Origin: an uncultured Pelagibacteraceae bacterium
Lineage (GTDB): Bacteria > Pseudomonadota > Alphaproteobacteria > Pelagibacterales > Pelagibacteraceae
Assembly (NCBI GenBank): GCA_902565935.1
Contig: CACFGT010000015.1
Location: 1 to 34,610, forward strand
DNA: 34,610 nt
Reading direction: 5' to 3'
The notes under the pieces: model-generated
What the model was told of the DNA's origin: nothing
Databases searched by the model: none
Seen by the model: the letters and a program-made list of their open reading frames with translations, nothing else
Translations under genes and position numbers: made by a program
Shown here: positions 18,097-21,318 of the stretch, in pieces
Layout of the letters: every line of letters begins with the position of its first letter
How positions within the stretch are numbered: position 1 is the first letter of the stretch

Positions 18097-18753
18097 ATGA
18101 AAAAAAAACTTTTTATAATTACACCCTGTTCTAGAAAAAAAAATCTTAAAGTTGTTTTCAAAAGTATAAATTTCAATGACAATATTGAGTGGATAATTGT
18201 TTACGATGCAAAAAAAATTGAAAAAAAAATTTTCTCACATAATAAAATTAAGGAATTTGCTTTTTTTGATGAAAAAAGTAAACACGGGAATTCACAAAGA
18301 AATTTTGCTATTGATTATTTAAGAAAAAAAAAAGACTTAAATTTTTTTATATACTTTTTAGATGATGACAATATTTTACATAAAGACTTTCAAAAATTTG
18401 TCAATAAACTCGAATATAAAAAAATCTATACTTTTGATCAAGATAAAATGTGTAAAATGTATTTAAACAAAAAATTTCAATTTGTTAAAGTTATTAGAGG
18501 AAATAAACCTTTACCAGGCAAAATTGATACTGCACAATTTTTATCTGATTTTTCTTTAATCAAAAATATAAAGTTTAAAACTTTAAAAAATGGAGATGAT
18601 TGTGATGGTCGTTATATTCAGAAATGTGTATCAAAAAATAAAAAAAAATACAGGTATATTTCAAAAATACTTTGTCACTATAATTATCTAAACAGAAAAA
18701 ATTTTGCTTCAAAAATTTTAGAGTTAAAGAATTTTATCAATTTTAGCTGCTAA
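18097..18753 (+). CDS. Glycosyltransferase-like protein (GT-A fold), specificity unknown
   Basis: A 218-residue protein. The start FIITPCSRKKNL is followed by IEWIIVYDAKK (about 32-42), HGNSQRNFAIDYL (about 64-76), and an acidic metal-binding motif YFLDDDN (about 89-95). A GKIDTAQFLSDFSL segment near 145-160 resembles the acceptor-side region of GT-A glycosyltransferases. The DDD cluster would bind a nucleotide-sugar via a divalent ion. The gene is unusually rich in A-runs (9 A near 18134; 10 A near 18324). It follows purH by one base. Its last 30 bases overlap the convergent phhB. The acceptor is unknown; surface glycan is a guess from the other glycan-type genes around. Confidence 0.6.
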   Translation: MKKKLFIITPCSRKKNLKVVFKSINFNDNIEWIIVYDAKKIEKKIFSHNKIKEFAFFDEKSKHGNSQRNFAIDYLRKKKDLNFFIYFLDDDNILHKDFQKFVNKLEYKKIYTFDQDKMCKMYLNKKFQFVKVIRGNKPLPGKIDTAQFLSDFSLIKNIKFKTLKNGDDCDGRYIQKCVSKNKKKYRYISKILCHYNYLNRKNFASKILELKNFINFSC

Positions 18754-19062
18754 GATAAAATCACTTTCTGCTAAACCTTGTATAGCATGAGTAAAAATCT
18801 TAATTTTGGCATAGCCCCAACCAAACCAAATATCTGGATGATGCCCCTCATTTTCAGCAATTTCCCCGACCTTATTTACAAAATTCTGACTGTTCAAAAA
18901 ATTTTCAAATTTAAATTCTTTAATTAAGTAGTAATGAGATAAATCATCTTGTTTGACGTCCCAGCCATCAACTTTTTTTAAATAATTATGAATTTCAGAA
19001 ACATCAAATGGGGGGATACCACCCTCGCATGGCATACATTTTTTTTTAGATAAATCATTCAT
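18724..19062 (-). CDS. phhB: Pterin-4a-carbinolamine dehydratase
   Basis: A 112-residue protein of the PCD/DCoH family, dehydrating 4a-hydroxytetrahydrobiopterin. Motifs: the N-terminal CMPCEGGIPP, WDV near 34-36, then the active-site histidines in EGHHPDI (H74, H75), YAKIKI and the THAIQGL segment with H92. Length is normal. No phenylalanine hydroxylase is next to it; free-standing PCD genes are common and may serve other pterin chemistry. The ATG is only 7 bases after the CCA end of tRNA-Gly on the same strand, so it is most likely transcribed from the tRNA promoter. Its 3' end overlaps the convergent glycosyltransferase gene by 30 bases. Confidence 0.93.
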   Translation of the reverse strand: MNDLSKKKCMPCEGGIPPFDVSEIHNYLKKVDGWDVKQDDLSHYYLIKEFKFENFLNSQNFVNKVGEIAENEGHHPDIWFGWGYAKIKIFTHAIQGLAESDFILAAKIDKIL

Positions 19063-19069
19063 AACTTTT

Positions 19070-19144
19070 TGGAGCGGGCAAAGGGGCTCGAACCCTCGAC
19101 CTTCTCGTTGGCAACGAGACGCTCTACCACTGAGCTACGCCCGC
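19070..19144 (-). tRNA. tRNA-Gly (anticodon GCC)
   Basis: Read on the minus strand the gene starts GCGGGCG and ends TGCCCGC-T-CCA. The acceptor stem pairs (with one G-T), the D arm is GCTCAGTGGTAGAGC, the anticodon stem CTCGT/ACGAG encloses a TTGCCAA loop, and the T arm is GAGGGTTCGAGCCCC-like. The anticodon GCC reads GGC/GGT glycine codons. The CCA end is encoded. A protein frame drawn across this gene is not real. The next gene downstream, phhB, begins 7 bases after the CCA. Confidence 0.97.
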
Positions 19145-19154
19145 ATATGAAAAT

Positions 19155-19182
19155 ATTATAGATCATGACTATATTTAAGCAA
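19155..19182 (-). promoter_or_regulatory. Sigma-70-type promoter for tRNA-Gly and probably phhB
   Basis: On the minus strand TTGCTT (19182-19177) is followed after 16 bases by a perfect TATAAT (19160-19155). The predicted start is a few bases before the 5' end of tRNA-Gly at 19144. This is the best housekeeping promoter match I see in the window. No promoter is possible in the 7 bases between the tRNA and phhB, so phhB should depend on it. Confidence 0.65.
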
Positions 19183-19236: not shown

Positions 19237-21318
19237 ATGGACAAATCTATTAATCAATTAATATCTGATACTAAAAATTTTTTGTCATTGAAAAAATTTG
19301 ACGAGGCTCTTGAGAGTTTAAATTTAATTATTGTTAAAGACCCTAATAATATTAGCGCATTATCTACCATAGGAGATATTTACGTATTTAAAAAAAATTA
19401 TGATGAAGCTATAAGGATATTTGATAAAATCATAAAAATAAATACGAAATTATCATTTATCTATAACAATAAAGGTTATTGTTTATTAAATAAAAAATCT
19501 TTTGAAGAGGCTATTAAAAATTTTAAAGAGGCAATTCAACACAATCAAAATTACCCTGAAGCATATAATAACTGTGGTTTAGCTTTAAATAAAGTTGGAA
19601 AAAAAAAAGAAGCTCTAAAATATTTCTTAAAAGCTACTCAAATTAAAAATGATTATATTCAAGCTTATAATAATCTTACTTTAATTTATCTTGAATTAAA
19701 TAACGTTGATGAGGCTTTAAAAACATGTAACAAATCAATTAAAATCAATCCAACAAATATTGAAGCTTATAATTTTGCAGGTTTAATTCACCAAAGAAAA
19801 AATGAAATCAATAAATCTTTAGATAATTTTAAGCAAGCATTGAAAATTAAGTCAAATTATTTTCCATCGTTATTAAATATTGCAAAAAATTATCAAAAAT
19901 CAAATGACTATGAAAATGCTAATAAATATTACATTAAAGCCTTAACTGTAGACTCTGAAAATATAAATGCATTATCAAGTTTTCTTCATTTTAAACTTGA
20001 GTTCATAGATTACTCAAATTTTAGAAATTTAAAAAAAAAATTATTTGATTTAATTAACAATAATGATCATAAACTAATACAACCATATTATATTCTTCTG
20101 TTAACGGATGATATTCAGTTTCAAAAAAAAATTACTCAAAAATGGTGTAATAAATTTTTACAAAATCCACAAACTTTGGAACTTAGAAATATAAATGACA
20201 AAATAAGACTTGGATATTTTTCCTCAGATTTCAAAAATCATCCAGTTATTAGCCTAATCAAAAACATATTTAAGTTTCACGATAAAGAAAAATTTGAATT
20301 ATTTGGTTTTAATCTAAGTATGGAAAACTATAAAAAAGACATTGATGAAAATTTAATTGATCATTTTAATGAATTTTTTGATTGTGGATTAAAATCAGAC
20401 GACGAAGTAATAAAAATTTCTAAAGATTTCAAAATTGATATTGCTATTGATTTAAATGGATACACAAAAGGTGGAAGATCTTTAATATTTAGAAATAAAT
20501 GTGCACCTATACAAATAAATTATCTTGGTTATCCTGGAACAATGGGAGACAAGTCATATGATTATATAATTGCAGATAAAGAAGTTATACCAAATGATTA
20601 CATCAAAGATTATTTAGAAAAAATAATTTTTTTACCTAATTCATTTTTACCCAATTCACTTGAAGATATAAATATTGTTAATAAATTAGAAAAAAAAGAT
20701 TTTCAAATTCCTAATAAAAAATTTATATTTTGTTGTTTCAATAATATCATAAAAATAAATGAAGAAATAATAGATATATGGTCAGAAATTTTAAGATTAT
20801 CAAAAAATTCTATTTTATGGTTATCAATATCAAAAAATACTATCCAAAGTAAAAATATTTTAAAAGAATTTAACCAAAGAAAGATTGATGCTGACAGAAT
20901 TTTTTTTTCTGAAAAAATTGAATACAAAAAGTATCTCGAAAGATTTCAATTAGCTGACCTATTTTTAGATACTTATCCATATGGAGGACACACCACGTCT
21001 ATTGAGGCTCTCGCAGCAGGATTACCAATTTTAACACTTCAAGGTAAAACTTTTCAAAGTAGAGTAACTGCGAGTCTTCTTAAGAACATTAATTTAAAAG
21101 AGTTAATTACCACTAATAAAGAAGATTACATAAAGTTAGCTGTGGAATTATCTCAAAATCATCAAAAATTGAATTTATTTCAAAATGAGATCAAAAAACA
21201 AAAAAATATATCTAATTTATTTAACAGCCAAAAATATACCAAAAATCTTGAAAAAGCATACTTTGAAGCATATGACAAATATACTAATCAAAATTTAGAT
21301 AATATTGATTTAAGTTAA
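19237..21318 (+). CDS. TPR-repeat protein with O-GlcNAc-transferase-like (GT41/SPINDLY) domain
   Basis: A 693-residue protein. About seven 34-residue TPR units fill residues 4-241 (recurring A-Y-N-N-x-G and EA...F...I patterns). The C-terminal GT41 domain, about 320-690, has YFSSDFKNHPV (His matching the active-site His of OGT), DLNGYTKGGR, APIQINYLGYPGT, an FCCFNNIIKI segment whose Lys matches the UDP-contacting Lys, and GGHTTSIEALAAGLP with SRVTASLL. Both catalytic landmarks are present, so activity is plausible. The target may be protein or a glycan; bacterial GT41 proteins are poorly characterised. No signal peptide is seen. It is divergent from tRNA-Gly. Confidence 0.9.
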   Translation: MDKSINQLISDTKNFLSLKKFDEALESLNLIIVKDPNNISALSTIGDIYVFKKNYDEAIRIFDKIIKINTKLSFIYNNKGYCLLNKKSFEEAIKNFKEAIQHNQNYPEAYNNCGLALNKVGKKKEALKYFLKATQIKNDYIQAYNNLTLIYLELNNVDEALKTCNKSIKINPTNIEAYNFAGLIHQRKNEINKSLDNFKQALKIKSNYFPSLLNIAKNYQKSNDYENANKYYIKALTVDSENINALSSFLHFKLEFIDYSNFRNLKKKLFDLINNNDHKLIQPYYILLLTDDIQFQKKITQKWCNKFLQNPQTLELRNINDKIRLGYFSSDFKNHPVISLIKNIFKFHDKEKFELFGFNLSMENYKKDIDENLIDHFNEFFDCGLKSDDEVIKISKDFKIDIAIDLNGYTKGGRSLIFRNKCAPIQINYLGYPGTMGDKSYDYIIADKEVIPNDYIKDYLEKIIFLPNSFLPNSLEDINIVNKLEKKDFQIPNKKFIFCCFNNIIKINEEIIDIWSEILRLSKNSILWLSISKNTIQSKNILKEFNQRKIDADRIFFSEKIEYKKYLERFQLADLFLDTYPYGGHTTSIEALAAGLPILTLQGKTFQSRVTASLLKNINLKELITTNKEDYIKLAVELSQNHQKLNLFQNEIKKQKNISNLFNSQKYTKNLEKAYFEAYDKYTNQNLDNIDLS

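Follow-up and report, generated by a model that had tools for sequence, protein, structure and literature searches.

How is a protein gene expressed when its start codon lies only seven bases behind a tRNA? The question is raised by one locus of the window, by which we mean the whole stretch of 34,610 nucleotides analysed here, from an uncultured SAR11 bacterium of the Pelagibacteraceae whose genome assembly comprises 1.09 Mb in 34 contigs. A preliminary description of this DNA had regarded phhB and a tRNA-Gly as fused in one transcript, driven by a strong TATAAT-containing promoter just before the tRNA. The position of the phhB start, seven bases past the CCA of tRNA-Gly(GCC), was corroborated by ARAGORN, by Rfam and by a reading of the minus-strand junction, which runs ...GCCCGCTCCA-AAAAGTT-ATG with the phhB ATG at 19062. 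The word fused overstates the case for two genes seven bases apart, but a shared tRNA-led transcript is backed by the sequence comparisons described below. The features of the locus are as follows:

19155..19182, minus strand: promoter-like element, with TTGCTT at 19182-19177, a 16-nt spacer and TATAAT at 19160-19155 (read from the sequence)
19070..19144, minus strand: tRNA-Gly(GCC) gene, with the encoded CCA at 19072-19070 (ARAGORN; Rfam RF00005, 69.2 bits)
19063..19069, minus strand: spacer AAAAGTT, seven bases, where tRNA 3' processing and the message leader are presumed
18724..19062, minus strand: phhB, pterin-4a-carbinolamine dehydratase family, 112 aa (Pterin_4a, PF01329, E 3.3e-25, 88.5 bits)
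18724..18753, no strand assigned: tail-to-tail overlap of 30 bp between phhB and a convergent ORF (ORF coordinates)

Our preferred reading, to which we assign a probability of roughly 0.7, is that of a tRNA-mRNA operon with its promoter before the tRNA, from which tRNA 3' processing would release a protein-coding message whose leader is very short. The tRNA and phhB share a strand and the 7 nt between them are too few for a promoter, and the TATAAT hexamer of the minus strand (19160-19155) lies 10 nt 5' of the tRNA. The convergent ORF behind phhB (18097-18753, plus strand) showed a sub-threshold match to a glycosyltransferase family (Pfam score 22.4 bits, cut-off 27), and the ORF found 5' of the tRNA is divergent, beginning at 19237 on the plus strand and leaving 92 bp to the tRNA. 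Folding of the junction RNA was no better than that of shuffled sequences (z -0.73).

Conservation of the tRNA-Gly/phhB linkage

Whether this linkage is conserved in SAR11 genomes had been raised by the preliminary description as a point to be checked, and for most of the family the answer is positive. The PF01329 family was matched in 180 of the 197 genomes of the order, 135 of them belonging to the window's own family (f1, Pelagibacteraceae) and 45 to a sister family (f2). Within f1 we examined 115 of the 135 loci, that is, 88 of the 108 in the window's genus and all 27 in the other genera, with 20 lower-scoring loci left out; the set is made up of the own locus, 105 others and 9 further ones, and L002 was dropped because it showed a tRNA match and no phhB. 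A tRNA-Gly(GCC) gene stands 4-50 nt upstream of phhB on the same strand in 86 of these 115 loci (81 located by ARAGORN, L045 read by eye at a contig edge with a gap of 9 nt, and four more), another 26 loci carry an inserted gene between both partners (23 plus L173, L174 and L176), and in three there was no tRNA within the fetched stretch (L048 and L172 of genus g3, L179 of genus g5). Over the 81 loci, the gap has a median of 10 nt, being at most 5 nt in 8, at most 10 in 41, at most 22 in 76 and 43-50 nt in the remaining 5. Hence the earlier remark that a promoter does not fit between both genes holds not only for the 7 nt of the window but also for the 4-22 nt of 76 of the 81 near-adjacent relatives. 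Similar figures were obtained for the nearest 80 phhB loci of named records, a set that shares some genomes with the 115 and is not an independent count: 59 showed a gap of at most 25 nt, 3 of 26-60 nt and 15 beyond 60 nt, and in the 3 without a tRNA the contig extends for less than 1 kb ahead of phhB.

Beyond the family, tRNA-Gly was found near phhB neither in the sister family f2 (30 loci; its PhhB proteins are 23-28% identical to that of the window) nor in 30 loci of other Alphaproteobacteria. One of the latter, L208, harbours a tRNA-Arg at the phhB locus, on the opposite strand as fetched. Judged from these sequence comparisons, the adjacency of tRNA-Gly and phhB is real and is kept among relatives beyond what chance would give.

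As for the function of the encoded protein, PhhB carries the PF01329 domain expected of a helper of phenylalanine hydroxylase, but the hydroxylase domain itself (Biopterin_H, PF00351) was found in none of 13 genomes of the order, and among 14 control genomes only Caulobacter matched. We have therefore discarded the helper role as an explanation, and phenylalanine hydroxylation is an unlikely task of PhhB in SAR11. A role in molybdenum cofactor metabolism has been recorded for the family (PMC3223725).

The promoter region and the genes inserted behind the tRNA

The TTGCTT/TATAAT pair of the window was unlisted in a strict promoter scan, where TTGCTT counts as 3/6, and the overall promoter count of that scan was at chance (25 vs 22.2 in shuffles). 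The claim of a strong promoter consequently rests on comparison among relatives, for which we used the 102 Pelagibacteraceae loci in which 65 nt or more precede the tRNA, together with 500 shuffles. A -10-like hexamer (at least 5/6) ending 4-14 nt before the tRNA occurs in 61 of the 102 loci, compared with a mean of 28.8 and a maximum of 43 in shuffles. The full arrangement of TTG, a 16-19 nt spacer and a -10 (at least 4/6) is found in 53 loci (shuffles: mean 4.4, maximum 13), although many loci come from close relatives and these 53 do not amount to 53 independent events. In this way the TATAAT element described before the tRNA stands, with its strength owed to the family comparison (53/102) and not to the strict scan.

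That transcription of phhB might start inside the tRNA gene, a finding which would have spoken against the preliminary description, or depend on an unrelated promoter farther upstream, is very improbable. Among hexamers within the tRNA gene with A at position 2 and T at position 6, the best -10 match was 2/6 in 99 loci and 3/6 in the other three; with nothing above 3/6 in any of the 102, a promoter within the tRNA gene was rejected. Moreover, a divergent gene (19237, plus strand) lies upstream of the tRNA here, and nothing in the window favours a separate start, the only hint coming from displaced phhB genes in three relatives (L052, L127 and L108), which seem to have a promoter of their own. 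Taken together, the enriched promoter before the tRNA, the lack of room between both genes, the absence of a recognisable promoter inside the tRNA and the family-wide linkage make co-transcription the economical reading, and it is very likely, as far as sequence can tell, that tRNA-Gly and phhB are co-transcribed from a promoter ahead of the tRNA.

The 26 inserted genes are of several kinds, comprising ten sulfotransferase-like genes, four FkbM methyltransferases, four alpha/beta hydrolases, three Methyltransf_24 and three TPR genes, a group-1 glycosyltransferase and a 2OG-Fe(II) oxygenase, the last one on the opposite strand (the names come from Pfam for eight representatives, and for the rest from translations judged by eye or from tblastn). 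The hydrolases, three of which are 66-78% identical to the fourth, occur in genera g2, g4 and g5. Examples of such loci are L033, L060, L065, L093, L108, L126, L173 and L174. Reading in the operon direction was observed for 25 of the 26 inserts, 20 of which start 4-22 nt past the CCA (17 with ATG and 3 with GTG), and the other five at 53 (L108), 85 (L120), 106 (L126), 142 (L066) and 147 nt (L173). Among the 21 inserts with a listed ATG ORF, one of them antisense, 13 overlap the start of phhB. In L173 a separate ORF of 44 aa with a lipoprotein-like start is found 5 nt past the CCA of tRNA-Gly, with the hydrolase following at 147 nt.

A tree of 115 phhB genes, quickly built from 333 bp and to be taken as a rough guide, required at least 16 changes of the binary linkage state, or 19 when the kinds of insert were told apart. 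Integrase-type insertion at the tRNA found no support, as no exact tRNA word of more than 9 nt was repeated in the insert or in the first 100 nt of phhB for the 23 inserts checked (L173, L174 and L176 were left out). Repeated and varied inserts in the operon direction, arriving without duplication of the tRNA, point to the tRNA 3' end as what looks like a recurrent entry point, where a newcomer would inherit the tRNA promoter. The three displaced phhB genes mentioned above (L052, L127, L108) show TTG, a 16-17 nt spacer and a TATAAT ending 6-8 nt before the ATG, which is what one would expect of a leaderless start and suggests that phhB can be read in that manner.

Proposed release and translation of the phhB message

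In the proposed mechanism, RNA polymerase would initiate just before tRNA-Gly(GCC) and continue into phhB. The 5' end of the tRNA would be made by RNase P, an endonuclease, most likely of the RNase E/G type, would cleave the A/U-rich spacer directly after the encoded CCA, and exonucleases would then trim the tRNA 3' end. The phhB message freed in this way would lack a Shine-Dalgarno (SD) sequence and be translated as a leaderless or near-leaderless mRNA. Such a release, which would leave the message some 0-7 nt of leader, is a plausible step. PhhB output might then follow tRNA transcription and RNase activity, as the preliminary description supposed.

With regard to the nucleases, all 8 genomes of the order that were searched gave an RNase E/G-family match over the cut-off, and in the same 8 genomes no match over the cut-off was obtained for RNase Z, an absence that is soft and unproven because 5 of the 14 control genomes in the search also fell below it. 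The sub-cut-off hits, which we did not count as RNase Z, scored no higher than 44 bits in the family of the window and 66 in the sister family, the cut-off being 293, and genome G001 gave none; in two loci, the neighbours of such hits are genes that we take to be tatD and metG. Altogether, an encoded CCA, the presence of RNase E/G and the lack of RNase Z matches over the cut-off fit an endonucleolytic cut a few nt past the CCA followed by exonuclease trimming. Precedents can be found in two studies: in Propionibacterium acnes, where no RNase Z is obvious, tRNAs with an encoded CCA are cleaved a few nt beyond the tRNA, with some cuts inside the CCA judged unlikely to be due to RNase E (PMC3848588), and in E. 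coli it is RNase E that separates tRNA precursors (PMC9841416). SAR11 shares with both systems the encoded CCA, the A/U-rich sequence that follows it and RNase E/G, whereas the E. coli precursors cited there are polycistronic tRNAs and those of SAR11 would be tRNA-mRNA pairs with a presumed cleavage (PMC9841416, PMC3848588).

The leader of phhB in the window would be at most AAAAGTT. Among phhB leaders of up to 11 nt, an SD 4-mer was present in 0 of 46, a result partly forced by their short length, and an SD-like word occurred in 17 of the 30 leaders of 12-22 nt. SD-like words preceded 16 of 152 sampled SAR11 gene starts (8.8 in shuffles), and being so uncommon there, a phhB gene without SD is not an odd case. 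Leaderless messages can be initiated by 70S ribosomes (PMC9031893). A TATAAT peak at leaderless spacing was not visible over 151 SAR11 gene starts inspected by eye with no shuffle control.

A different possibility is that the unprocessed tRNA-phhB transcript is the one translated, with the tRNA as a structured 5' leader, so that processing would end the message rather than release it. The SD-like words in 17 of the 30 longer leaders could be used before cleavage in such a case, but 41 of the 81 phhB leaders do not exceed 10 nt, and a distance of a few nt between CCA and AUG would place the acceptor stem inside the upstream footprint of the ribosome, which opposes translation of the uncut transcript. 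We regard this alternative as improbable, and favour the tRNA-mRNA operon with release by tRNA 3' processing.

Such a release has a well-known counterpart in mitochondrial tRNA punctuation, where excision of the preceding tRNA sets the 5' end of the message and gives rise to leaderless or near-leaderless mRNAs. The likeness would lie in the proposed generation of the 5' end by tRNA excision; the differences are that SAR11 would do so on a bacterial chromosome, for some genes only and with an encoded CCA. This encoded CCA and the lack of RNase Z matches over the cut-off indicate that the nuclease is probably another one than in mitochondrial punctuation.

Other tRNA-led genes and the weight of genome compaction

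The preliminary description had treated the locus as a single oddity; the arrangement was described correctly, but it is not singular, being one case of a family-wide class. In this regard, we surveyed two genomes, the own one and G015, in which 30 and 32 tRNAs were detected by covariance model and 29 and 32 by ARAGORN, whose default setting missed the tRNA-His of the own genome. CCA is encoded in all 61 tRNAs found by ARAGORN in stretches of the two genomes. With gene starts taken mechanically as first ATGs, a same-strand protein gene lies at most 20 nt past the CCA of 7 of the 32 tRNAs in G015 and of 8 of the 29 in the own genome, which are few genes for a genome of 1.1-1.4 Mb and fall short of genome-wide punctuation. 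The gaps, in nt, are the following:

G015: Trp-secE 16, Pro-NDUS4 5, Leu(UAG)-trigger factor 9, His-hisS 4, Gln-cca 3, Leu(CAA)-AMP-binding ligase 7, Gly-phhB 10
Own genome: Leu(UAA)-NAD kinase 5, Trp-secE 20, Glu-GIY-YIG 2, Pro-NDUS4 8, Gln-cca 3, Met-methyltransferase 13, Leu(CAA)-AMP-binding ligase 6, Gly-phhB 7

Ten of the linked proteins were checked by Pfam, six from G015 and four from the own genome, where secE, NDUS4 and the ligase were named by likeness to the G015 proteins. The gene linked to tRNA-Gln gave a PolyA_pol match, which does not distinguish a tRNA nucleotidyltransferase from a poly(A) polymerase. SAR11 stretches also show tRNA-Trp ahead of secE (Pfam), as well as tRNA-Tyr/tRNA-Gly(UCC) ahead of a gene recognised from its sequence as EF-Tu-like.

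Two of these pairs were followed across the family, with cca matched in 38 and hisS in 37 of 41 genomes and gaps taken from 30 Pelagibacteraceae loci each. The tRNA-Gln gene lies 3-7 nt before the cca-type gene in 28 of 30 loci (L211-L240), the other two, both of genus g3, having 496 nt, and tRNA-His lies 4-5 nt before hisS in 29 of 30 (L241-L270), one of them read by eye at a contig edge. Since other SAR11 genes stand behind tRNAs in the same way, phhB can be seen as one member of a family-wide set. Outside the family, a tRNA directly before hisS was found in none of 29 loci over the cut-off (L308, with a hisS match below it, was dropped), and a tRNA directly upstream of the cca-type gene in 1 of 30. 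This exception, L409, carries tRNA-Arg(ACG) 20 nt ahead of a PolyA_pol-type gene on the same strand, and is apparently an independent tRNA-led case outside the order. In the f2 genome G002, tRNA-His is found about 1.4 kb upstream of hisS.

Plain compaction offers a more sober view of these data, in which phhB sits behind a tRNA by happenstance and shares its promoter as genes of any operon do, the order being devoid of functional meaning. Such a view is compatible with release by tRNA processing, of which it denies only the significance, and we give it an even chance of being right. The spacer between hisS and its next gene is as constant as that between tRNA-His and hisS (-23 in 18 of 30 loci, -4 to 2 in the other 12), so that a mechanism cannot be argued from constant gaps alone, and the constant tRNA-CDS gap is weakened as a proof of function. 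The same control for cca was uninformative, since in 30 of 30 loci its rule gave no downstream neighbour. Moreover, the genes found no more than 20 nt from a tRNA 3' end in the two genomes comprise 16 convergent and 15 same-strand ones (a recount that omits a 60-aa ORF overlapping a tRNA region and a masked stretch, the tRNA-Ala neighbour of L144), indicating that abutting tRNA 3' ends is not peculiar to the operon direction. The phhB gap itself is variable (4-50 nt), and the median intergenic region of 3 nt in P. ubique (PMC2704228) together with the largely conserved gene order of SAR11 (PMC2217521) likewise favour compaction. What compaction alone leaves unexplained is that 20 of the 25 same-direction inserts start so close to the CCA, and neither does it predict the pairing of tRNA-His with hisS and of tRNA-Gln with an enzyme of tRNA 3' ends, although two pairs could be due to chance. 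Much of the tight spacing between tRNAs and genes is, in any case, ordinary SAR11 compaction.

A more ambitious proposal extends release by tRNA processing to a punctuation with feedback. In this line, near-leaderless messages such as those of hisS and the cca-type gene would exist only after tRNA excision, tRNA maturation would set their output, and HisRS could regulate itself through the tRNA of its own transcript. We consider it rather doubtful. The tRNA-His/hisS and tRNA-Gln/cca-type pairs are possible feedback pairs.

Mixed tRNA-mRNA operons occur in bacteria, as exemplified by the tRNA-tufB operon of E. coli, with which the SAR11 loci would share the presence of a tRNA and a protein gene on one transcript. 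They differ from it in a spacer of 3-22 nt, often without SD, instead of a normal leader, and in the protein genes concerned, which include hisS, the cca-type gene and phhB. A tRNA-led mRNA arrangement in SAR11 was not found among the titles and abstracts searched, a scope with most subscription journals outside it. SAR11 is among the most abundant groups of marine bacteria and is difficult to manipulate, as the abstract of PMC7029224 also states. If several of its genes, including those for a tRNA synthetase and for an enzyme acting on tRNA 3' ends, were expressed solely via tRNA processing, tRNA maturation would act as a control point of gene expression in a streamlined genome, and mitochondrial transcript punctuation would gain a bacterial parallel open to testing. 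The conserved tRNA-His/hisS, tRNA-Gln/cca and tRNA-Gly/phhB junctions are concrete sites for inspection in SAR11 RNA-seq.

Some loci show spacings of their own. In the own genome (L246), tRNA-His and hisS stand 29 nt apart, with a small inverted repeat in the spacer, compared with the 4-5 nt of 29 relatives. In genus g3 the tRNA-Gly/phhB link is seen in 0 of 2 loci (L048, L172) and tRNA-Gln is at 496 nt from the cca-type gene (L238, L240), with tRNA-His still lying 5 nt before hisS (L248-L250, L256).
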